Under the pieces are notes generated by a model. The model ran no database searches, was not told the origin of the DNA, and saw only the letters and a program-made list of their open reading frames with translations. Of a stretch of DNA of 64,000 bases, positions 6,067 through 39,266 are shown in pieces. The stretch is from a virus: positions 1 to 64,000 of the IMG/VR virus record IMGVR_UViG_3300042868_005520. One strand, given 5' to 3'. Numbering within the stretch: position 1 is the stretch's first letter; every line of letters begins with the position of its first letter. The position numbers were made by a program, and so were the translations under genes.

Positions 6067-7251
6067 ATGGCAAGAGAAAATATCGAAGATGTCATCAAGA
6101 AGGTAATTCTGGGCGAAGGCTTTCTAGCCGAGACTGCACAGGATCCAGATCCAACTGAAGACGAGGACACCTCGGAAGAGGATGCTTCGGCTGATGAGGG
6201 TTTTGAAGTCGAGGAAATCGACGAAGCCAAGTGCGATGACAAGGAAGAGGACGAAGACGAATCCGAGGACGAAGAGTCCGAAGAGGAAGAAGAACCCAAG
6301 GGCAAGAAGAAGATGCCAGCATTCCTCAAGGGAAAATTTGGCAAGAAGGGCAAGTCCGAAATGGAAGAAGCCGTGTCTGACTACGCCAGCACCAATATCA
6401 CCCATGATGTAAACAAGAAGGGTGCTAAGATTGCCGAACCAACTGGCGATGCCAGTGGTAAGAACAAGGGCACCATCAAGGCTAAACCTTCTGCTGCCAA
6501 GGCTGAAACCAAGATCCCTGAGATCAAGCCCACCGTCAAGGAAGATATTGCTGCCATGCTGACAGGCGAAGACCTTTCAGAAGAATTCAAGACTTCTGCT
6601 GCCACTCTCTTTGAGGCTCACCTCGCAGAGCGTGTTTATCAGATCGAAGAGGAATTGAAGGGGCAATACGAAGATCTTCTTGAGCAGCACACCGTTGCTG
6701 TTACCGAAGAACTCGTTGAGCGCATTGACGATTACCTCAACTATGTGGTCGAAGAGTGGATGCAAGAGAACCGTCTCGCTGTAGAGAAGGGTCTTCGCAC
6801 CGAGATCACCGAAAACTTTATCTCGAACCTCAAGGGACTCTTCACCGAGTCGTACATTGAAGTTCCTGAAGACAAACTCGACTTGTTTGAATCCACTGTT
6901 GATCAGGCGGAAGCCCTCAACAGCGAACTTCAAGGACAGGTCGAGAAGAACATGGAACTCTCAGAAGAAGTCGAGCAACTCAAGTGCGAGATCATCTTCC
7001 GCGAGATTTCCGAAGGAATGACTGATACTGAAGTTGAAAAACTTCGCCGTCTCGCAGAAGACCTAGAGTTTGATACGATTGAGCAGTTTGCCGAAAAGAT
7101 TGGTGTTCTCTGCGAGAACATTGGATCCATCGGAACAGTAGCAGAAGAAGCATCATCGGAAGAAGGACTCGAAGAGTCCTACGAAGACGCTTCGGAAGCA
7201 ACCCCGCTCGTTGAAGCGTATGTGCGCTCCATGAGCAAGTCACGAGAGTAA
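6067..7251 (+). CDS. 22: Prohead scaffold protein gp22
   Basis: A 394-residue acidic protein. Residues 20-80 are almost all Asp/Glu/Ser, followed by a Lys-rich patch (GKKKMPAFLKGKFGKKGK). The rest is predicted coiled coil with many Glu and Leu. This fits T4 gp22, the main internal scaffold that gp21 degrades, though it is longer than T4 gp22 (269). The extended acidic/basic N-terminal region is the main difference. Its position between protease and major capsid genes is decisive. AAGGAG precedes the ATG. Confidence 0.88.
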   Translation: MARENIEDVIKKVILGEGFLAETAQDPDPTEDEDTSEEDASADEGFEVEEIDEAKCDDKEEDEDESEDEESEEEEEPKGKKKMPAFLKGKFGKKGKSEMEEAVSDYASTNITHDVNKKGAKIAEPTGDASGKNKGTIKAKPSAAKAETKIPEIKPTVKEDIAAMLTGEDLSEEFKTSAATLFEAHLAERVYQIEEELKGQYEDLLEQHTVAVTEELVERIDDYLNYVVEEWMQENRLAVEKGLRTEITENFISNLKGLFTESYIEVPEDKLDLFESTVDQAEALNSELQGQVEKNMELSEEVEQLKCEIIFREISEGMTDTEVEKLRRLAEDLEFDTIEQFAEKIGVLCENIGSIGTVAEEASSEEGLEESYEDASEATPLVEAYVRSMSKSRE

Positions 7252-21126: not shown

Positions 21127-21834
21127 ATGAGCAGACTTGTGATCAAGTTCCCTACGCGGAACCGACCTGAAAAATTCAAAACCGTCTTTTCCCGCTACCT
21201 CACCTTCTTGAGTGGACGGCATGATGTTCGTTTCATCCTGTCAATGGATGAGGATGATCTCACCATGAATAATCCTGAAATGCACCAGTGGATTTCCACT
21301 CGTGCAGAGAACGCACAGATTGAGTGCTTCTACGGGAACTCTAAGTCCAAGATTGAGGCTTGCAATGCCAACCTAGAGGGTGTTGACGGCGATGTACTGC
21401 TGTTGGCATCAGATGACATGGTGCCCGTGCAGATGGGATACGATGATATAATCTTTGGTGCTTTCTCTCAAGCCTTTCCTGACTTTGATGGTGCAATCAA
21501 GTTTTGGGATGGTCTGCGTCCAAAGGAAGACCCGCTGATGACTCTCACAGTCATGGGCTTCCCCCTGTACAAGCAGTTCGGATACATTTACAATCCTGAG
21601 TACAAGTCTCTGTACTGCGACAACGAGCAGACACAGGTTTGTGCTGCGCTGAACAAGTTGCGCCGTTGCGACCTGTGCATTATTCAGCACCAGTGGACGG
21701 GTGAGCCATTCGACACCCTCCACGCTCGTAACGAAAACGCGGAGATGTACGGGGTGGACGGTGAAACATTCAAGCGCAGAGGCGCAAATAAATTTGATAT
21801 GGAGGAAATGTTCAATGCCAGTATCAGCAAGTGA
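21127..21834 (+). CDS. Glycosyltransferase-like protein (GT-A type)
   Basis: A 235-residue protein with a GT2-like nucleotide-sugar fold: VIKFPTRNRPEKFKTVFSRY at the N-terminus, and the acidic VLLLASDDMVP (about residues 93-103) in the DxD position. It starts the accessory glycan block just after RegA. The substrate is unknown. Its C-terminus overlaps the next glycosyltransferase. Confidence 0.7.
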   Translation: MSRLVIKFPTRNRPEKFKTVFSRYLTFLSGRHDVRFILSMDEDDLTMNNPEMHQWISTRAENAQIECFYGNSKSKIEACNANLEGVDGDVLLLASDDMVPVQMGYDDIIFGAFSQAFPDFDGAIKFWDGLRPKEDPLMTLTVMGFPLYKQFGYIYNPEYKSLYCDNEQTQVCAALNKLRRCDLCIIQHQWTGEPFDTLHARNENAEMYGVDGETFKRRGANKFDMEEMFNASISK

Positions 21835-22453
21835 AATCAAGTTCAGCATCCTGATGCTGTCCATTCCCGAACGCATCGAATCCATGACCGCTGCGGTGAA
21901 GCATCTACAAGAGCAAGCCGATGCTGTAGGACAAGGCAAGGCGGTAGAGATTCTTGTGCTGTTGGACAATCGCTCCAAGAGCATTTCCGAGAAGCGTAAT
22001 GACCTCCTGCAAATGGCACGGGGTAAGTACATTGCGTTCTTGGACGATGACGATGCAGTCAGCAAGGACTACATGAGTAAGATCCTGACCGCTATTGACC
22101 AAAACGATGTTGACTGCATCTCATTCAACCAGTGGTGCAGCATCAACGGCGAACCAATGGATGTGGAGTTCGGCATCGGAAATCCCCACGGGCAGTTGTG
22201 GCGGGACGAAGACGGCTTCCTTGGTGACATCAAGCGTCCACCGTACCATATGTGCCTGTGGCGCAGTGATATTGCCAAGAGTGAATCTTTTAATCCTGTA
22301 TATGGAGCCAACGGGCAGTCTTCGGAAGACATTGATTGGCTCATGCGCCTGTACCCCAAGATTCAGACGGAACATCACATTGATGACTCGTTGCACGGGT
22401 ACATCTATAGTTCCGAGACAACCACCTCCCTTGTTCCACAGGAGCAGCAATGA
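21815..22453 (+). CDS. Family 2 glycosyltransferase
   Basis: A 212-residue GT2-type enzyme. It has the N-terminal IKFSILMLSIPERIESM, a VEILVLLDNRSKSISEKRN stretch, and a clear DxD-type metal/nucleotide motif in YIAFLDDDDAVSKDY (about residues 69-83). The C-terminal GQSSEDIDWLMRLYP resembles the ED catalytic-base region. It probably adds a sugar to a phage or host acceptor. The start at 21815 has GGAGG 9 nt upstream. Confidence 0.8.
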   Translation: MPVSASEIKFSILMLSIPERIESMTAAVKHLQEQADAVGQGKAVEILVLLDNRSKSISEKRNDLLQMARGKYIAFLDDDDAVSKDYMSKILTAIDQNDVDCISFNQWCSINGEPMDVEFGIGNPHGQLWRDEDGFLGDIKRPPYHMCLWRSDIAKSESFNPVYGANGQSSEDIDWLMRLYPKIQTEHHIDDSLHGYIYSSETTTSLVPQEQQ

Positions 22454-24204: not shown

Positions 24205-24948
24205 ATGAATAGTAGAATCAATGTATTGATCCCTATGGCTGGTCGTGGAGAACGATTTTCTTCCGTGGGTTATGATCTTCCAAAACCATTAATAGAAATT
24301 AATGGACGACCCATGATAGAATGGGCATTGCGTAGTTTAGATGTGGATTTTTACCTACACAATTTTATTTTTGTTGTACGAGACTATCAGAATGATGAAA
24401 TCAACAATCGGATTGCATCAGTTCTAACCTGTCTTGTGCCAAACAATAAAATTGTAAAAATTGATTATGTCACGGAAGGACCAGCGTGTACTTGCTTGCT
24501 TGTTCGTGATATGATTGACAACGATTCTCCTCTTATGGTTGGAAACTGCGATCAAATTATGAGATGGAATGGATCATACTTTGTAAGCAGTTGTTTAAAT
24601 TCTCCATATGATGGAGTAGTGGTTACCTATGATGAAAGCACTCCAAAAAATAGTTACGCCAAATTGAATTCTCGTGGAGATGTGATTCGAATCGAAGAAA
24701 AAAATGTCATAAGCAATGTGTCTTTGAATGGTATACATTTTTGGAAACACGGTTCGGATTTTGTTAGTTCTGCGGATTCCATGATAGAAAGTAATGAGCG
24801 GTATAACAATGAATTTTATGTTGGACCAACATATAACCACATGATCAAGACGGGAAAGCGAGTTGGCATTTTTCACATACCACGCGAATGTCATAATCCA
24901 GTCGGTGTTCCGAGTGATCTTGGAGACTTCTTGGAAAAAAATAAATGA
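24205..24948 (+). CDS. Sugar nucleotidyltransferase
   Basis: A 247-residue NTP_transferase family enzyme that would join a sugar phosphate to a nucleotide. IPMAGRGERF (residues 9-18) and LPKPLIEINGRPMIEW give the Gly-rich/Arg nucleotide motif and the PKPL motif. The acidic metal residue is probably in VGNCDQIM near residue 115. With the cupin and RuBisCO-like protein downstream it could supply an uncommon NDP-sugar. AT-rich. Confidence 0.82.
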   Translation: MNSRINVLIPMAGRGERFSSVGYDLPKPLIEINGRPMIEWALRSLDVDFYLHNFIFVVRDYQNDEINNRIASVLTCLVPNNKIVKIDYVTEGPACTCLLVRDMIDNDSPLMVGNCDQIMRWNGSYFVSSCLNSPYDGVVVTYDESTPKNSYAKLNSRGDVIRIEEKNVISNVSLNGIHFWKHGSDFVSSADSMIESNERYNNEFYVGPTYNHMIKTGKRVGIFHIPRECHNPVGVPSDLGDFLEKNK

Positions 24949-25274
24949 AGAAATATAAACTTAAAGATATGCATAGAGGATGGTTAATTGGTGATTTTGA
25001 ACCGTCTGTGCTAAGGACGCAAGATTTTGAGGTGGGTGTTCTCACTCACAAAAAAGGCGAACATTGGGATGAACACTATCACAAGATAGCAACCGAAATC
25101 AATGTGTTGGTTGAAGGAAGTATGACGATAAACGGCATACATATAGAGGTTGGAGACATCTTTATCATTGAGCCAAACGAATCCTCTGCTCCAATTTTTC
25201 TAGAGGATTGTAGAGTGCTGTGCGTGAAAACCCCTTCTGTGATTGGAGATAAATATGCAACTATTCGTGAATGA
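24945..25274 (+). CDS. Small cupin-fold protein
   Basis: A 109-residue single-domain cupin. The metal-binding pattern is visible as EHWDEHYHKIATEINVLVEG, with the second motif GDIFIIEPNESSAP. Cupins of this size act as isomerases, dioxygenases or sensors; the sequence does not decide which. It lies between the nucleotidyltransferase and the RuBisCO-like gene, overlapping both. Confidence 0.75.
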   Translation: MKKYKLKDMHRGWLIGDFEPSVLRTQDFEVGVLTHKKGEHWDEHYHKIATEINVLVEGSMTINGIHIEVGDIFIIEPNESSAPIFLEDCRVLCVKTPSVIGDKYATIRE

Positions 25275-26448
25275 GTCTGCACTTGACAGCGAAAAGTATT
25301 TCGTAGTCACCTACAAGTTGGAGTCCGACAAGAACCTACGCGATGCCGCTTGGAACATTGCCATCGGTCAGAGTGTTGGTAATCCAAATGTGCGGAACCG
25401 TTGGGAGACAGAGGATTTGTTTAAGAATCACTCTTGTCTAATACTCGCTGACGAGATTGAACTACAGAACAAGACATCAGGAGAAGTCAAGATTGCGTTC
25501 CCCGTGATCAACACTGATTGGGAAACAGATGGAATCAGCCATCTGCTGTGTCAGATCATGGGTGGTCATGTTGATATTGACTTGGTGAAGAAGTGCCGCG
25601 TAGTCAAGTTGGATCTTCCACAAAGTGTTACCAAGCACTTCGCAGGACCAAAGTTTGGCATCAGTGGTATGAGGAAGTTCACGGGTCAGTACGAAAAGCC
25701 ACTGCTTGGCGCGATCATCAAGCCCAAGATCGGTATCACTCCAGAAACCCTGTTGGACATGGTTAAAGAACTCGTTGATGGCGGAGTTGACTTCATCAAG
25801 GAAGACGAGATCATGTCAAATCCGTCTTTCTGTCCACTAGACAAGCGTGTGCACATGATTTCAAATTATCTGCGCTCACAATCTCGTAATGTAGTATTTT
25901 GTCATACCATCAACTGTGATCCGCACATTCTTGCGGGTCGTGTTTGCAGAATCCACTCCCTTGGCGGAAACGGTGTACACATCAATGTGTGGAGCGGATA
26001 TGGTGCTTACAACAGCATTCGAAAACTAGATCTTCCAATCTACCTGCATTTCCAAAGCAGCGGTGCAAAGGTTGCGACAAGCGTAAACAATCAGTTCAGT
26101 ATTAGTTGGTCTGTGATTTGTCAGTTGGCTACTCTCATGGGTGTAGACACCATTCAGACAGGAATGGTGGGAGGTTACAGCAATGACGATCCTCAAGAAA
26201 TACTTGAGTGCATCAAGGTGCTACGAGAAGGAAACACAGTTCCTGCACTCAGTTGTGGCTTGCATCCAGGATTGGTTGACAAGATTACATCTCTTGTCGG
26301 AAATGACTATCTTGGGAATGCGGGTGGAGCCATTCACGGTCATCCAAACGGAACATTGTCTGGTGCGAAAGCGATGCGACAATCCGTTGATAAGACATAC
26401 GGAACAGAATATACACACGCAATTGAAAAGTGGGGAAAGATACTATGA
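25255..26448 (+). CDS. RuBisCO-like protein (form IV type)
   Basis: A 397-residue protein of the RuBisCO large-chain superfamily. The N-terminal domain (to about 130) precedes the TIM-barrel. In spinach numbering, Lys175/Lys177 correspond to K156/K158 (IIKPKIG) and the Mg2+-binding Lys201/Asp203/Glu204 to K182/D184/E185 (GGVDFIKEDE). His294 corresponds to H265 and Ser379 to S333. Asn123, Arg295, His327 and Lys334 are replaced (Gly, Phe, Gln301, Tyr308), so it probably does not fix CO2. RuBisCO-like proteins act as enolases, isomerases or decarboxylases on sugar-derived substrates. It lies between a cupin and a methyltransferase gene in the glycan block. ATG has GGAG 6 nt upstream. Confidence 0.88.
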   Translation: MQLFVNESALDSEKYFVVTYKLESDKNLRDAAWNIAIGQSVGNPNVRNRWETEDLFKNHSCLILADEIELQNKTSGEVKIAFPVINTDWETDGISHLLCQIMGGHVDIDLVKKCRVVKLDLPQSVTKHFAGPKFGISGMRKFTGQYEKPLLGAIIKPKIGITPETLLDMVKELVDGGVDFIKEDEIMSNPSFCPLDKRVHMISNYLRSQSRNVVFCHTINCDPHILAGRVCRIHSLGGNGVHINVWSGYGAYNSIRKLDLPIYLHFQSSGAKVATSVNNQFSISWSVICQLATLMGVDTIQTGMVGGYSNDDPQEILECIKVLREGNTVPALSCGLHPGLVDKITSLVGNDYLGNAGGAIHGHPNGTLSGAKAMRQSVDKTYGTEYTHAIEKWGKIL

Positions 26449-27065
26449 AGTGGAAAGAAGATTTGACTCACGACATTAGATTTGGTTCGGTTGTAGACGA
26501 TATTGACCACCCAATTCCTGAATTGGGATTGAAACCAGCAAGCCCTCCTGCTGAATTCACAGATGATAATCATGCGGCTATTCAAAAGGCTATAGATCGG
26601 TGCAAGAATAAGCCAAAGACATTCCTAGAAATAGGTGTCTGTAGAAACGGTCATCATTCATCGACACACACCATATTTAAGAATCTTCCGAGTGATGGAG
26701 TTTATCTTGGAGTTGATCTTGATGATAAAACCTTCCTAGACAACAAAGAAAATGGAATTCATACTATAAAAACATCTTCTTCCAACTACGAAGAAGTAGT
26801 ATCTAAATTGAAATCTCTTGGTGTGGATAAGTTGGATTTTATATTTATAGACGGATGGCACAGTATCAATCAGGTTTTATCTGATTGGGAATACACCAAT
26901 CTTCTTTCTGATGGCGGTGTTGTTGCTTTACACGATACTACTGCTCATCCTGGTCCTTTCTTCTTTATGAAATTTTTGAATAGATCCACATGGGAAGTGC
27001 ACCCTAATCTGTGTCCAAACGATCACGGTTTGGGGTATTGCTTGAAGAATCAGGATACAAAATGA
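26445..27065 (+). CDS. Class I SAM-dependent methyltransferase
   Basis: A 206-residue protein with the Rossmann methyltransferase pattern: TFLEIGVCRNGHHSSTH for SAM motif I, GVDLDDKTF, KLDFIFIDGWHS for motif post II and VVALHDTTAHPG. This is the type used for sugar or small-molecule methylation in polysaccharide clusters (Methyltransf_24-like). Its ATG overlaps the stop of the RuBisCO-like gene as ATGA, which suggests the two act together. Confidence 0.75.
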   Translation: MKWKEDLTHDIRFGSVVDDIDHPIPELGLKPASPPAEFTDDNHAAIQKAIDRCKNKPKTFLEIGVCRNGHHSSTHTIFKNLPSDGVYLGVDLDDKTFLDNKENGIHTIKTSSSNYEEVVSKLKSLGVDKLDFIFIDGWHSINQVLSDWEYTNLLSDGGVVALHDTTAHPGPFFFMKFLNRSTWEVHPNLCPNDHGLGYCLKNQDTK

Positions 27066-28060
27066 TAAAGGTTCTATTTGTTACTGCGGTTGGAAATGCC
27101 AAATCATATGACTACTTAACAGATGGTATTCTTCACGGACTGAAGACTCGAAAAGATAAGTTTGATGTATATGAGTGCTTTGGTATGAAGCATCTGTATA
27201 AAAATTATCCAACTGATGATAGTCCTGCTTTGTTCGGTAGAAGAAATCTGAATGGTGGACCAAACGAACTAGGTTTGGGTCTGTGCATCAAGATGGTTGC
27301 TGACAAATTTTTTGATGTGATTGTTTTTGATTGGAGAACATCGAGCAATTTTTGGAACAATCATGGGCATTGTCCGTATTGGAAAGAAACAGTTGCAATA
27401 CAAAATGTTGCATTCTCTGCATATCCAAAAGAGAAGATTGTATTCTTGGATAGTAGCGATGACAATGTTGGGAAGTATGAGATGTTTACTCAACCGTTTG
27501 TTGGTAAATCAACATACTTCAAACGAGAATTGTATATTGATGATCCATACTTTCATCCCATAGACATACCTTTTGCTGCGGAAAAGGGAAGCCCTTTGAT
27601 TTTGTCTAATTCTAAAGACAAGTATCTATCCCATGTAATACCAGAAAAAAAAGATACCTATATTTTTAAAGATGAATCTTCTTATTATGGAGATTACGCA
27701 AAGTCTTATTTCGGGGCAACATGGAAAAAGATTGGTTGGGGATGCTATCGCCATTCCGAGATCGTGTTTGCTTCATGTGTTCCTTTGTTTCCAGATATTA
27801 CTCACTGCCCTATGCGAACACTGACTTTTTTTCCAAAAAGCCTTTTTCAAGAGGTTCTTAATCGCGGTGTGTTGCGTAATACCGCCACAAAGGTACAGAA
27901 GTATTCGGATATGTACACTTATGAAAACATTGAAATTAACGAATCTGCTATTGACAAGTCCTGGTATGATGATATTCTTTACCAAGTATATGATCACGCT
28001 CACAAAAATCTCACCACTACAGCAATGGCAGATTATGTTCTGTCTAAACTAGACATATGA
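27062..28060 (+). CDS. Putative glycosyltransferase, GT-B-like
   Basis: A 332-residue protein beginning MIKVLFVTAVGNAKSYDYLTDGIL, typical of GT-B N-domains. The C-terminal half (GCYRHSEIVFASCVPLFPD) resembles the donor-binding loop. I cannot name its family. The DNA is AT-rich with several long A/T stretches, unlike the core genes. Overlaps neighbours by 4 bp. Confidence 0.55.
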   Translation: MIKVLFVTAVGNAKSYDYLTDGILHGLKTRKDKFDVYECFGMKHLYKNYPTDDSPALFGRRNLNGGPNELGLGLCIKMVADKFFDVIVFDWRTSSNFWNNHGHCPYWKETVAIQNVAFSAYPKEKIVFLDSSDDNVGKYEMFTQPFVGKSTYFKRELYIDDPYFHPIDIPFAAEKGSPLILSNSKDKYLSHVIPEKKDTYIFKDESSYYGDYAKSYFGATWKKIGWGCYRHSEIVFASCVPLFPDITHCPMRTLTFFPKSLFQEVLNRGVLRNTATKVQKYSDMYTYENIEINESAIDKSWYDDILYQVYDHAHKNLTTTAMADYVLSKLDI

Positions 28061-28878
28061 AACAATCAATTGTATTTCGCGGTAGTATATGCAATGACCG
28101 ATACAAGACTAATTTTTTGAAAGACTCTGTTTCGGAACTGCGTAAATGGTTTTTTGGTGAAATCATAATTTCTACATGGCATGGTCAAGAAGAAAATGCC
28201 AATTGTATCAGTGGTGTTGATAAGATTGTTTACACTCAAGACCCCGAATCGGGATTGGTTGCACATAATCGGAGGCAGCATATTTCGTTCAGAGAAGGAG
28301 TAAAGGCTAGTTCTGGCGATGTTGTTTTTGTGACACGAACAGATTGTCTTCTGACGAAGGATCCATTTTATTTAATGGACTGCAATCAAGATCATGATAC
28401 TCGTTTTCGTTTTGTTAGCAGAAGAATGGTTGCTGGAAACATGATGACATTTTCCCCAAACCAAGGTTCTTCTTCTAGTGAAAAGTGGGACGGCTATTTT
28501 AGACTGGGAGATTGGTTTCATATGGGAATGCGTAAAGACATTCTTTTGTGGGGAGATGTTTTAGAATTTTCAGAACAGTTAAATGCAGATGTGAATGGAA
28601 TACAGACACCGAATCGTTCGGTTGAACAGTTGTGGCTGATGTCTGCCATAAATAAATACAGCAAAGACAAGATAGATTTGCAGAAATATCAGTTTATGGA
28701 TGTATATGATGCATGGGCTGGAATTCTAAATAATTTTAGAGTAGTCAATACCCGATCCACTGCGGGAGTACACAACTTAAACTGGAATCATAAGTCCGAG
28801 TTTCATCCTCTGTATGTGACAGAGGATGAATACAATACTGCTTTTTTAAATCGTTATGGAACTATCATAAAAGGATAA
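28057..28878 (+). CDS. WavE-like LPS synthesis protein
   Basis: A 273-residue protein like WavE, a family tied to LPS core synthesis in Vibrio. The pattern IIISTWHGQE, then GVDKIVYTQDPES, LVAHNRRQ and a RTDC motif (VTRTDCLLTKDPF, about residues 92-104) fits a GT-A-type acceptor domain. C-terminal EQLWLMSAINKY is also typical. The presence of this gene suggests Gram-negative cell envelope glycans. Confidence 0.65.
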   Translation: MKQSIVFRGSICNDRYKTNFLKDSVSELRKWFFGEIIISTWHGQEENANCISGVDKIVYTQDPESGLVAHNRRQHISFREGVKASSGDVVFVTRTDCLLTKDPFYLMDCNQDHDTRFRFVSRRMVAGNMMTFSPNQGSSSSEKWDGYFRLGDWFHMGMRKDILLWGDVLEFSEQLNADVNGIQTPNRSVEQLWLMSAINKYSKDKIDLQKYQFMDVYDAWAGILNNFRVVNTRSTAGVHNLNWNHKSEFHPLYVTEDEYNTAFLNRYGTIIKG

Positions 28879-28880
28879 TC

Positions 28881-29801
28881 GTGGAAACCAAAGACTTCCT
28901 GTTTTTCAACTATTCGTGGGTGGTTAACTCTACTTTCTACTTTGAGTCCTTTGCCAAGAAAGGACACAGCATAGACATTGTTACAGAAAAAGATCTCCAT
29001 TCTTTTGTTCCGCAGAACAAGTACAAAAATGTTGTGCTATATCTCCATGAACCGTGGAGTCTTCCTATAACTGATCACCTAATAAACACATACTTCAACG
29101 ATGCTGTTTTGATTCAGCATGATGATACGGATTTTGAAGATGTTCAATATTGGAGCACTCGCGTTCCTGATCTGGTGATGCAGAGGGAATATACAGACAA
29201 TACTAAAAATCCTCGTGGTTCTGCTATGGGTGCTTTCCATTTCCCCATTCATTCGTGGTACAATCCGTCCATAACAGAAAAACCGTATGATCTGTGCTTC
29301 CTGGCAAACATGACGCATCCTAGACGAGTCATGTTTGCCAGGAAGATGATGGAGTTGATGAACGGTAGACTAAATCATTTGGTTTGGAAAGTAAACATAG
29401 AACCTCATGTGAATACATCTTCTCAGTTCTACAATAAGAATGCCTTCAGTGAGCAGAAGGAAGACACAAAGATAATTGTTAACAAGACCAAGATTGGACT
29501 GAACGATTTTGGAAATTCTTATGAACAGTGGAGAACATGGGAATACGCAAGTGCTGGTACGGCAATACTTATGCCAAAGATGAAAACCAAGTGTGTATCA
29601 GAAGGCTTTATGCCTTTCAACGAATACACTGTATTTCGTGATGATTACTCTGATTTGGAGGAGAAGATACTTTTCCTGCTAGAAAACAATCGGTATATGG
29701 AATACGGCACGATGGCTAAAGAAGCCTATGATAAAAGACACAATCCCGAAAAGTGTTTTGAGTTTTATTACGAGCAAATTATGAGGTATGCCAAACAATG
29801 A
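28881..29801 (+). CDS. Glycosyltransferase, GT-B-like
   Basis: A 306-residue protein starting with GTG. The N-terminal part (FFNYSWVVNSTFYFESFAKKG) resembles a GT-B acceptor domain, and the C-terminal YEQWRTWEYASAGTAILMPK with later FRDDYSDLEEKI is the donor-binding domain of family 1-type enzymes (Glyco_trans_1_2-like). An actor in glycan assembly; specificity unknown. Confidence 0.65.
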   Translation: METKDFLFFNYSWVVNSTFYFESFAKKGHSIDIVTEKDLHSFVPQNKYKNVVLYLHEPWSLPITDHLINTYFNDAVLIQHDDTDFEDVQYWSTRVPDLVMQREYTDNTKNPRGSAMGAFHFPIHSWYNPSITEKPYDLCFLANMTHPRRVMFARKMMELMNGRLNHLVWKVNIEPHVNTSSQFYNKNAFSEQKEDTKIIVNKTKIGLNDFGNSYEQWRTWEYASAGTAILMPKMKTKCVSEGFMPFNEYTVFRDDYSDLEEKILFLLENNRYMEYGTMAKEAYDKRHNPEKCFEFYYEQIMRYAKQ

Positions 29802-30238
29802 ATATCATTTCTCATCGTGGAAATCTATATGGACGAGATCCTTCACAGGAAAACTCTACACAGTATATTCAAAAAGCACTTGAACACGGATTTGATGTTG
29901 AGATAGATGTTTGGTATAACACCGATCTAAAGCAGTTTTATCTTGGACATGATATGCCAACATATTCCGTGACAACTTCTTTTTTAAAAATTGATAGGTT
30001 GTGGTGTCATGCTAAAGATGAAGAATGTTTTTCTAAACTTCTTGATCTTGGGGTGAATTGTTTTTGGCATGAAAATGATAGATTTACACTTACATCACAC
30101 GGCATTGTTTGGTGCTATCCCAACAATTGGTGTGAGCGAGGAGTAACCGTGGTTTTTGATCCACCTTCATCTGAAATACTTTCAAAAAACATTTTTGGTA
30201 TATGTGTTGATGATCCTGTGAATTGGAGAAAAATCTAG
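29798..30238 (+). CDS. GDPD-like phosphodiesterase domain, short
   Basis: A 146-residue protein. It starts NIISHRGN, and residues 18-45 carry the ENS...DVEIDVWYN pattern, with LGHD further on; these are the His/Glu/Asp metal motifs of glycerophosphodiester phosphodiesterases. It is far shorter than the usual 230-300 residues, so it may be a reduced form. The substrate could be a phosphodiester in a surface glycan. 4 bp overlap upstream. Confidence 0.65.
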   Translation: MNIISHRGNLYGRDPSQENSTQYIQKALEHGFDVEIDVWYNTDLKQFYLGHDMPTYSVTTSFLKIDRLWCHAKDEECFSKLLDLGVNCFWHENDRFTLTSHGIVWCYPNNWCERGVTVVFDPPSSEILSKNIFGICVDDPVNWRKI

Positions 30239-30852
30239 TGAAACCATTTATAGTATCATCTCATTACAATGAGGATTTGTCTTGGATTGTGCATCAAACA
30301 GAGTACAATTATAAGATATACACAAAGAATCACAATCCATCAGATTTCATTCCGAAAGACAAGATTGTTTACATTCCCAATAAAGGGAACGAAGCGTCTT
30401 CTTATTTGTGGTATATCATAAACAACTACGATTGTCTTCATGAGAGCGTTGCTTTTGTTCATGGTCACTATACGGCATGGCATCAGAATATGGACATTCT
30501 GACCGCTATAAGAAAATACGATGGCTCGGATTACATGACTCTGAATGATCTTTCGCGGAGAAATGTGTTTCACGATAATTGTGGGATAGAAGGAAACGCT
30601 ATAGGAAATTGGAATTGGGCTAGGCAAGGCATGATTGAGATTGGTATGGAAGTTCCTATTCCAACAAGACTCGAATTTACTCAGTGTGCTCAGTTTGTTG
30701 TTACAGCCAGCAGGATACGGTGCAATAGTTTGAATTTCTATAAGCGTTGTATGGATTGGTTGATGAGGACTCCATTTCCTGACGCTATCTCTGGTAGAGT
30801 TTTTGAGCATATCTGGCATTACATAATGACACACAAGGAAATTGAAAAATGA
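30238..30852 (+). CDS. DUF3431-like protein, glycan cluster
   Basis: A 204-residue protein, likely starting at the GTG (TAGTG overlap) with GGAG upstream; a TTG five codons earlier is possible. The pattern IVSSHYNEDLSWI, then NKGNEASSYLWYIINNYD and AFVHGHYTAWHQN fits the DUF3431 family of putative GT-A-like proteins. It precedes UDP-galactopyranose mutase. Function unproven. Confidence 0.65.
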   Translation: MKPFIVSSHYNEDLSWIVHQTEYNYKIYTKNHNPSDFIPKDKIVYIPNKGNEASSYLWYIINNYDCLHESVAFVHGHYTAWHQNMDILTAIRKYDGSDYMTLNDLSRRNVFHDNCGIEGNAIGNWNWARQGMIEIGMEVPIPTRLEFTQCAQFVVTASRIRCNSLNFYKRCMDWLMRTPFPDAISGRVFEHIWHYIMTHKEIEK

Positions 30853-31943
30853 TGTATGACTATATGATCGTTGGTTCTGGTCTATTTGGGGCAATATTTG
30901 CCAGACAGATGACTGATGCGGGTGCACGGTGTCTTGTTGTAGACAAACGCAAGCATATTGGTGGAAACTGCTATACCCGTAACGAAGGTGGAATTCATGT
31001 TCACGAATACGGTCCACATATATTTCATACGAGCAGTGACCGCGTATGGGAATACATGAATCGGTGGACTCGGTTCAATCATTTTGTGTATCGCCCCCGT
31101 GTCATTCATGGAGACAACCTATACTCGTTCCCCATCAACCTGTTTACACTATATCAGTTGTGGGGGGTAAAGACACCTCAAGAAGCACAAAACAAATTGG
31201 CTCAAGTGCGGCTCACCATTCCATCCCCGTCAAACCTAGAAGAATGGGTACTGTCCCAAGTGGGAGAAGAAATTTACGAGAAGTTCGTGAAGGGCTACAC
31301 CATGAAGCAGTGGAACCGCGATCCCAAGGATCTTCCTGCGTCCATCATCAAGCGACTTCCCATTCGGCTCACTTATGATGACAATTACTTTGATGACAAG
31401 TATCAAGGTATACCTGTCGATGGATACACGCCCATCTTTGAAAAACTATTGAGTGATATTCCCGTTGAAACAAGTGTAGACTATCTTAAAGATCGTGAGC
31501 GTCTTGAGAATATGGCAAAAAAGATTGTATACACGGGAGCCATAGACGAATTCTTTGGCTGCGATCTAGGCAATCTTGAGTGGAGAAGTCTGAGGTTTGA
31601 ACATCAGACACTTCAGATTCCTGACTATCAGGGAGTAGCAGCAATAAACTACACCGATGCCACGATCCCATATACTCGCGTGGTGGAACACAAGCATTTC
31701 ATATTTGGAAAACAGGATCATACTGTCATCACCCACGAGTACCCACAGAATTGGGATAACACAAAGGAAAAGTTTTATCCAGTGACTGACGATAGAAATA
31801 ATGAACTGTATATTCAGTATAAGAATAGGATTGACACCGAGAGATACATATTCGGTGGTCGTTTGGCGGATTACAAATATTACGATATGCACCAAGTTGT
31901 AGGGTCTGCCCTAACACGCAGTGAAAAGGAAATTGAAAGATGA
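30849..31943 (+). CDS. glf: UDP-galactopyranose mutase
   Basis: A 364-residue FAD enzyme that turns UDP-galactopyranose into UDP-galactofuranose. The FAD Rossmann motif is VGSGLFGAIFARQ (residues 8-20) and VDKRKHIGGNCY follows. EYGPHIFHTSS, KGYTMKQWNRDPKDL and the C-terminal FGGRLADYKYYDMHQV match this family closely. Galactofuranose is used in LPS and capsule. Length is normal (about 370). ATGs at 30849 and 30852 are both possible starts. Confidence 0.93.
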   Translation: MMYDYMIVGSGLFGAIFARQMTDAGARCLVVDKRKHIGGNCYTRNEGGIHVHEYGPHIFHTSSDRVWEYMNRWTRFNHFVYRPRVIHGDNLYSFPINLFTLYQLWGVKTPQEAQNKLAQVRLTIPSPSNLEEWVLSQVGEEIYEKFVKGYTMKQWNRDPKDLPASIIKRLPIRLTYDDNYFDDKYQGIPVDGYTPIFEKLLSDIPVETSVDYLKDRERLENMAKKIVYTGAIDEFFGCDLGNLEWRSLRFEHQTLQIPDYQGVAAINYTDATIPYTRVVEHKHFIFGKQDHTVITHEYPQNWDNTKEKFYPVTDDRNNELYIQYKNRIDTERYIFGGRLADYKYYDMHQVVGSALTRSEKEIER

Positions 31944-32881
31944 AAGCATTAGTAACAGGTGGAGCGGGTTTTATTGGATCGAATTTGGTTGATCGGCTAA
32001 TTTTGGAAGGTCACGAAGTCACAGTGATAGACAACGAATCATCTGATGCCCATGATCACTTCTATTGGAATTCAGCAGCAAAAAACTACAAGTACGATAT
32101 CAATGATTACACGATGGTTCGTGAATTGTATGAAGGAATAGACATGGTGTTCCATTTTGCTGCTGAGGCTCGTATTCAGCCGTGCATTGTTGATCCACTA
32201 AAGGCTGTGAAATCCAATATGCTTGGTACTGCTAGTGTGTTGCAGTGCGCTCGTGTATGCGGTGTAAAGCGTGTCATCTATTCATCCACATCATCCGCTT
32301 ATGGACTGAAGAATACTCCTCCTCTTGTTGAGACAATGCCAAACGATTGCCTTAACCCATACTCGGTGACCAAGACAGGTGGTGAGGAATTATGTAAAAT
32401 GTTCTCCAAACTGTACGGCTTAGAGACAATCATATTTCGATACTTCAATGTGTACGGAGAGCGTCAGCCACTGCGTGGACAATATGCTCCAGTGATTGGC
32501 ATCTTCTTGCGTCAACGGGCAGCAGGAGAATCCATGACCATTGTTGGTGACGGAGAACAGAGGAGAGACTTCACCCATGTTAGCGATGTGGTTGAAGCCA
32601 ATATCAAGGCTTCTCAGTTTATTGCTCCTCGTTATAATATTACCGACAATGGCTCGTGTCAGACTTATCGAGGATGGGAATGGGGTCAGATTTACAATAT
32701 TGGAACAGGAACCAATCATTCAGTGAATGAGATTACTGCATTTATGGGTGGTCAAACTGTAAATATTCCTCCACGCGCAGGGGAATCCCGAATCACTCTT
32801 GCTAATGCAAATAAAGCAAAGGAACATCTTGGATGGATTCCCCAAGTTCGTCTTGAAGAGTGGATTGCCAAGCATAAATAA
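31940..32881 (+). CDS. NAD-dependent sugar epimerase/dehydratase
   Basis: A 313-residue short-chain dehydrogenase of the extended type. The NAD motif is GGAGFIGS (residues 7-14), and the catalytic site is the SSTSSAY...YSVTK region (about residues 115-145) with Tyr and Lys. The family includes UDP-glucose/GlcNAc 4-epimerases. It overlaps glf by 4 bp and would make UDP-galactose, a feed for Glf, if it is a 4-epimerase. Substrate not shown by sequence. Confidence 0.88.
   Translation: MKALVTGGAGFIGSNLVDRLILEGHEVTVIDNESSDAHDHFYWNSAAKNYKYDINDYTMVRELYEGIDMVFHFAAEARIQPCIVDPLKAVKSNMLGTASVLQCARVCGVKRVIYSSTSSAYGLKNTPPLVETMPNDCLNPYSVTKTGGEELCKMFSKLYGLETIIFRYFNVYGERQPLRGQYAPVIGIFLRQRAAGESMTIVGDGEQRRDFTHVSDVVEANIKASQFIAPRYNITDNGSCQTYRGWEWGQIYNIGTGTNHSVNEITAFMGGQTVNIPPRAGESRITLANANKAKEHLGWIPQVRLEEWIAKHK
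32874..32880 (+). promoter_or_regulatory. Late-type box ATAAATA
   Basis: ATAAATA overlaps the stop of the epimerase gene and ends 21 nt before the next ATG (32902). The predicted start, 6 nt after the box, is an A, and AAGGAG follows. Confidence 0.45.
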
Positions 32882-39016: not shown

Positions 39017-39266
39017 GCCGATTGGAAAATGGATTTGGGTGCAGTCTGAACTTGGTGGGCAAACCGAAACCGAAGCGGGAATCATTTACAATGAAGTAAT
39101 ACGATCTCGGAACATTTGGGCGCGGGTTGTCGCAATTGGTGATAAGATAACGGAAGACATTCGTGTAGGCGACCGTATTCTGTGGGACAGAACACTGAAC
39201 AAGGGTCAAGGACATGACGGCAAAGACATGGTTCATCAGGATTGGATTGCACTCGTAGAACGATAA
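39003..39266 (+). CDS. GroES-like co-chaperonin (gp31-like)
   Basis: An 87-residue protein in the GroES/Cpn10 pattern: KFKPIGKWIWVQSE, then TEAGIIYNEV, ARVVAIGDKITEDIRVGDRILWDR and a C-terminal HQDWIALVER. In T4, gp31 replaces GroES so that GroEL folds gp23. The mobile loop is short here. It overlaps the methyltransferase by 14 bp and the polymerase gene starts 8 nt later. Confidence 0.75.
   Translation: MSKFKPIGKWIWVQSELGGQTETEAGIIYNEVIRSRNIWARVVAIGDKITEDIRVGDRILWDRTLNKGQGHDGKDMVHQDWIALVER

Follow-up and report, generated by a model that had tools for sequence, protein, structure and literature searches.

A RuBisCO-like protein from a phage glycan gene block belongs to a separate, largely viral branch and is a candidate sugar-phosphate isomerase

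RuBisCO-like proteins (RLPs) are few in function. In RuBisCO itself, enolization is the work of carbamylated K201 and its metal, and the steps that involve K334 and H294 are carboxylation and hydration. MtnW (YkrW) is a DK-MTP-1-P enolase with a RuBisCO-like fold, and both OiaX, a catabolic enzyme, and the RLPs found with four-carbon acid sugar kinases act on phosphorylated sugar-derived substrates. The RLP of R. rubrum is a ketose-phosphate 1,3-isomerase that converts 5-methylthioribulose-1-phosphate in MTA metabolism and is paired with a cupin (PMC4958253; PMC6302742). In the 2007 Global Ocean Sampling (GOS) survey, 65 marine homologues of RuBisCO could be assigned to none of the known forms, and changes in the active site, for example at N123 and H327, were noted (PMC1821046). 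We found no report of phage-encoded RLPs in the open-access papers searched.

The window, i.e., the whole stretch of 64,000 nucleotides analyzed here, is part of a 113-kb virus record. A preliminary description made from the sequence had placed an RLP gene inside a phage glycan block, and the surroundings agree with this. T4-type replication genes flank the block: those for gp44-like and gp62-like clamp loader proteins lie upstream, the gene for a regA-like repressor immediately precedes it, and a DNA polymerase gene of the gp43 type is found downstream at 39242. The identity of its product to cyanophage polymerases is only 47%. The RLP gene, its partners, and the accessory genes are as follows.

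24205 to 24948, plus strand: nucleotidyltransferase (NTase) of the NTP_transferase fold, core partner (PF00483, 1.7e-6; phrog_3980, 2.2e-57)
24945 to 25274, plus strand: small single-domain cupin, its gene overlapping those of the NTase and the RLP (phrog_24762, 2e-36; cupin motif 1)
25255 to 26448, plus strand: RLP, 397 aa, with the signature GQS[VI]GNP / KPK / KEDE / Q-[KS]-S-G / GMxGGY / SCG
26445 to 27065, plus strand: class I methyltransferase (Methyltransf_24), accessory (PF13578, 3.7e-6)
28057 to 28878, plus strand: WavE-type LPS synthesis protein, accessory (PF07507, 1.4e-11)
28881 to 29801, plus strand: glycosyltransferase-like protein, accessory (PF13524, 2.6e-6)
29798 to 30238, plus strand: short GDPD-like phosphodiesterase, core partner, 3.3 kb downstream of the RLP gene (HRG, EN, ExD, and GHD motifs)
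30849 to 31943, plus strand: UDP-galactopyranose mutase, accessory, in the glycan block (PF03275, 1.1e-74)
31940 to 32881, plus strand: NAD-dependent sugar epimerase/dehydratase, accessory (PF01370, 1.4e-55)

The RLP gene starts with the ATG at 25255, with GGAG ahead of the start codon, and shares 20 bases with the end of the cupin gene. ATGA overlaps are found at two further junctions, between the NTase and cupin genes and between the RLP and methyltransferase genes. Because these gene ends and starts overlap, the four genes are probably translated as one unit. The NTase scored 28.2 bits against PF00483 (cut-off, 21.2), which places it in the NTP_transferase family. The cupin drew no call from Pfam and has no close solved relative (best match 3d82, E = 0.028); it carries cupin motif 1 (G-x5-HxH-x4-E-x6-G) as GEHWDEHYHKIATEINVLVEG, and the motif is seen in the cupin alignment. 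PF03009 was not called for the GDPD-like protein of the window, but the HRG, EN, ExD, and GHD motifs are invariant in the alignment of its family, and the positional equivalent in two other loci (L095 and L096) is a full-length PF03009 GDPD (1.2e-21 in L096). The glycan block also holds a DUF3431 protein (7.2e-33) at 30223 to 30852. Two glycosyltransferase-type open reading frames (ORFs) (phrog_14945; PF00535), at 21127 to 22453 directly after regA, overlap in different frames, the start of the second being uncertain.

The RLP is a RuBisCO-superfamily protein, with homology far beyond chance. The preliminary description had seen the RuBisCO barrel pattern in the 397-residue ORF and had proposed a search with RuBisCO profiles; PF00016 (RuBisCO_large) matched at 4.6e-37 and PF02788 at 2.5e-4, both above the cut-offs. 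Among PDB sequences, the matches were solved form III RuBisCOs and RLPs (form III 8dht, 1e-37). An AlphaFold model built from a 16-sequence alignment reached a pLDDT of 89.9, and its best solved match in Foldseek was the form III RuBisCO of Pyrococcus, 2d69 (TM, 0.88/0.83). The protein thus combines the two features that define the superfamily, a two-domain fold (PF00016, PF02788, and the Foldseek match) and the K201-D203-E204 metal site, represented by K182, D184, and E185.

Residue equivalences were taken from a 67-sequence alignment that includes 39 family members (16 viral and 23 cellular). K156, K158, K182, D184, and E185 of the window protein correspond to K175, K177, K201, D203, and E204 of RuBisCO, and all five are invariant in the 39 sequences. 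The equivalents of S379, G381, and G403 are likewise invariant wherever readable, and that of G404 is kept with few exceptions. Other positions are replaced in the window protein: N123 by G104, H294 by Q267, R295 by S268, H327 by Q301, K334 by Y308, and T65/W66 by N43/P44. Within the family, H294 is Gln and N123 is Gly in 39/39 members, K334 is Tyr wherever readable, and the changes of T65-W66 to Asn-Pro and of D202 to Glu occur throughout. Position 268 is Lys in most relatives and Ser in the window protein. Gln at the H327 position is shared by the window protein and some viral relatives; because His is retained in 9 of the 16 viral relatives and in every one of the 22 cellular relatives that can be read at this position, Q301 is, on this alignment, not a family trait. 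The metal-site residues and the losses at H327, K334, N123, and R295 had all been read in the same way in the preliminary description, whose list did not contain the replacement of H294 by Q267.

Form III RuBisCOs (Pyrococcus 2cwx/2d69 and Thermococcus 1geh/3a12) give the best fold match of the RLP and are among its best sequence matches, and they share with it K175, K177, the K201/D203/E204 site, and the Ser and Gly positions listed above. It could be asked, then, whether the phage uses a functional CO2-fixing RuBisCO. However, K334, H294, N123, T65, and W66 are replaced family-wide, the 60s loop reads GQSVGNP, KEDE stands in place of KDDE, and the family forms a clade of its own outside forms I to III, and we give a carboxylase practically no chance. 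These same residues favor the earlier prediction that the protein does not fix CO2. The pattern would rather suit an enolizing, non-carboxylating enzyme.

A maximum likelihood tree was built from 16 viral representatives and 23 cellular relatives together with forms I, II, and III, MtnW, and OiaX-type RLPs. The viral and cellular sequences formed one group (support, 100/99), apart from all reference forms. The group was again separate (99/97) in a second tree, to which Chlorobia-type and Bacteroidota RLPs had been added; both trees were computed without the R. rubrum (DeepYkr) RLP and the GOS sequences. The two Chlorobia-type (IV-Photo) rows of the second tree, assigned to Chlorobia from their sample, grouped elsewhere. 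One Chlorobia row (L241) of that tree, a wrong-frame ORF, was an outlier and left the RLP group unaffected. The preliminary description had called the protein form IV-like. It fits form IV in the broad sense, as a RuBisCO homologue without the carboxylase residue set and a predicted non-carboxylase, but this label is only a catch-all, and the RLP belongs to a distinct group (99 to 100% support). A position inside carbon-fixing RuBisCO, or a failure of K182/D184/E185 to fall at a metal site, had been named as what would speak against the form IV reading. The trees keep the protein outside forms I to III, and fold and alignment put the three residues at the metal-ligand columns, which answers these points in part, the second at the level of columns rather than of an atom-level overlay. 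The group may be the same as the unassigned GOS homologues, which also lie outside all known forms.

In both trees, the RLP also fell outside the MtnW and OiaX clades, and it scored far under the cut-off of every NCBIfam equivalog for RuBisCO or RLPs. MtnW shares the fold and metal site, the expected class of substrate carries a single phosphate in both cases, and acireductone dioxygenase is a cupin, which would make the RLP a methionine-salvage enolase with the dioxygenase next to it. Against this, the two MtnW models gave 161.5 bits (NF007095; cut-off, 409) and 132.9 bits (cut-off, 513.6), the RLP keeps K177, which MtnW lacks, and has Q267 where MtnW keeps the His of H294, and its clade and neighbors differ, with no other salvage gene seen. 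A salvage enolase is extremely unlikely.

Strict patterns retrieved at least 168 confirmed viral relatives from IMG/VR, of which 80 were kept for analysis. In contrast with this abundance, cellular genomes yielded only 23 RLP loci, from Pelagibacteraceae and Pelagibacterales (SAR11), other Alphaproteobacteria including Azospirillum, Bacteroidota, Patescibacteria, Elusimicrobia, Verrucomicrobia, Legionella, and DPANN archaea, including nanoarchaea. A tblastn search of the 50,697 named phages of INPHARED returned no RLP match, and PHROGs holds no family for the protein. The preliminary description had named no characterized phage case in this setting, which agrees with the named phages searched.

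Partners were counted by HMM searches within 5 kb of the RLP gene; the sampling of loci is biased by the queries, and most viral records are fragments, which makes absences weak. The NTase was found in 78/81 viral loci, the GDPD-like protein in 69/81, and the cupin in 55/81, nearly always on the same strand, and all three accompany the RLP in 43/81, including the window. The corresponding figures for the cellular loci, several of which are on short contigs, were 18/23, 13/23, and 5/23; some loci, cellular ones above all, lack the cupin and the GDPD-like gene. The NTase and the GDPD-like protein accompany the RLP across widely separated phyla, among them Pelagibacteraceae, Patescibacteria, and nanoarchaea. 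The core of the cassette is therefore the NTase, the RLP, the GDPD-like phosphodiesterase, and the cupin. The coupling to a cupin and an NTase noted at the outset stands; the methyltransferase that had been grouped with them is not core, as its homologue occurs in about 30 of 82 loci, and the GDPD-like gene had been overlooked. The accessory genes for the methyltransferase, WavE, the UDP-galactopyranose mutase, and the epimerase differ from locus to locus and look like users of the cassette product.

These partners bear on two readings of the cassette. The RLP-cupin pair has its precedent in R. rubrum (PMC4958253), where an MTA-isoprenoid shunt operates; by analogy, an RLP 1,3-isomerase and the cupin would yield a deoxy-ketose phosphate for an IspD-like cytidylyltransferase, and the NTase does show weak similarity to IspD (25.2 bits; cut-off, 27). 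But no reductoisomerase was seen, the genes lie in a glycosyltransferase block that includes a GDPD, and the cupin, besides having no close solved relative, is missing from about one-third of the viral loci; such a shunt is very unlikely. The same weak IspD-like similarity, together with the frequency of the GDPD family and the true PF03009 members in L095 and L096, would also suit a cassette whose product is a nucleotide-activated polyol phosphate, used to decorate glycans through phosphodiesters, and in which the RLP only sets up a ketose phosphate to be reduced and the GDPD edits or recycles the phosphodiester. The LicD-family genes near the RLP-NTase pair in Legionella point the same way; yet they represent one syntenic locus, no LicD was detected in the viral loci by motif and BLAST searches, and no dedicated reductase is conserved. 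We consider the polyol phosphate route improbable.

LicD was also considered as a general partner and was rejected, since it occurred in Legionella only and on the opposite strand. The genes concerned (PF04991, 1e-42) are at 6636 to 7487 of L101, 6946 to 7785 of L102, and 6761 to 7612 of L103, in three Legionella species.

The strongest clue to the function of the RLP lies outside the window. Named cyanophages carry the homologous NTase without an RLP. The NTase of Synechococcus phage Bellamy carries a fused LacAB_rpiB domain (PF02502, 3.9e-32) and is followed by a homologous cupin (41%); cassettes of this type have homologous NTase, cupin, and GDPD genes in the same arrangement as ours, whereas the isomerase step falls to the fused RpiB/LacAB domain and not to an RLP. 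The Bellamy gene (7835 to 8992 of L105) is annotated only as "phosphatase," and its relatives (L154 to L186) are fusions followed by cupin and GDPD genes. In phages S-CAM9 and B23, the fusion partner of the NTase is a HAD phosphatase. In Synechococcus phage S-SKS1, the partner is DHBP synthase (PF00926, 5.4e-65; 5001 to 6428 of L150), and the fusion is annotated only as the latter. Ribulose 5-phosphate is a substrate or product common to RpiB and DHBP synthase. A stand-alone DHBP synthase gene was also seen about 1.4 kb downstream of the RLP cassette of one viral contig (10565 to 11173 of L006).

IMG/VR was scanned with the Bellamy NTase, and domains were assigned to the resulting 85 NTase loci. 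An RpiB domain was present in 32 of them, 25 of which also had the cupin and most the GDPD. HAD domains were found in 49, with a cupin in only 1, a locus that also carries RpiB. None of the 85 NTase loci contained an RLP, and none of the 104 RLP loci an RpiB domain. Searches of whole records found no case of both together, a weak negative, as they returned nothing or one genome. In L053 to L055, an RLP is present together with a HAD-NTase fusion. The RpiB domains of the fusions keep the DHSG, Cys, and RHN motifs, which we take to be typical of active RpiB. In a tree of the NTases, the RpiB-fused proteins formed one clade (99/93), and repeated swaps between RLP and RpiB were not seen. Because of this single clade, RLP and RpiB were probably exchanged only once, and the nucleotide sugar of the RpiB-fusion cassettes could differ from that of the RLP cassettes.

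Because an RpiB isomerase replaces the RLP beside a homologous NTase, the RLP is most likely an isomerase or epimerase that performs enolization-type chemistry on a ketose phosphate and feeds a nucleotide-activated sugar into glycosylation. As a counterweight, alternation with RpiB does not prove an identical reaction. We propose that the RLP would be a metal-dependent enzyme with a carbamylated lysine, having kept the enolization half of RuBisCO chemistry and lost the carboxylation half, and that it would isomerize or epimerize a small ketose or aldose phosphate of the pentulose or tetrulose class. The cupin could catalyze a second isomerase-type step, and the substrate supplied by both would be joined to a nucleotide by the NTase, giving an activated sugar or polyol. 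Within the same pathway, a phosphodiester would be the target of the GDPD-like enzyme, and the transferases encoded nearby would place the product on a glycan built during infection. The R. rubrum RLP and its cupin offer a precedent for a ketose-phosphate isomerase, likened to ours by context and not by sequence, and they serve MTA metabolism rather than a sugar-nucleotide cassette with an NTase and a GDPD.

The RLP might instead work in the manner of OiaX-type RLPs, by decarboxylation or hydrolysis of a sugar acid that carries a phosphate; it would then shorten or cleave a 3-oxo sugar acid phosphate, and the resulting ketose phosphate would be activated. OiaX represents a characterized reaction class among RLPs, its step would likewise give a ketose phosphate, and OiaX also has Gly at the N123 and Gln at the H327 position. 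The NCBIfam OiaX model, however, gave 151.2 bits against a cut-off of 700, and the tree groups are separate. The residue pattern of OiaX-type RLPs is the opposite of ours: they have H294, R295, and K334 but not K177, whereas our family keeps K177 and has Tyr for K334. Four-carbon acid sugar kinases, among the named neighbors of OiaX-type RLPs, were not seen in the cassette, whose setting is biosynthetic rather than catabolic, and the alternating partner is an isomerase, not a decarboxylase. We therefore regard an OiaX-type step as unlikely and favor the isomerase.

More tentatively, this separate and largely viral branch of the RuBisCO superfamily may carry out a reaction so far unknown among RuBisCO relatives, a biosynthetic isomerization or rearrangement of sugar phosphates. 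Its product would be the precursor of a new nucleotide-activated sugar, destined for glycans that the phage directs, and in the same cassette the branch may have displaced an RpiB-type isomerase or been displaced by it. A conserved viral branch with an intact enolizing site, fixed sugar-activation partners, and an isomerase stand-in has a directly testable function, which bears on RuBisCO homologues like those that the 2007 marine metagenomes left without an assignment. The cassette points to phages that draw on sugar phosphates of the host to remodel glycans of the surface or the virion.

The Bacteroidota RLPs of the second tree were considered as members of the group and rejected, since they fall in a different clade. 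These proteins (L254 to L263, e.g., 3931 to 5034 of L255) have KDDH for KDDE and thus lack E204, and in many genomes their gene lies downstream of purA and is followed by the gene for a 150-aa cupin, forming another RLP-cupin pair.
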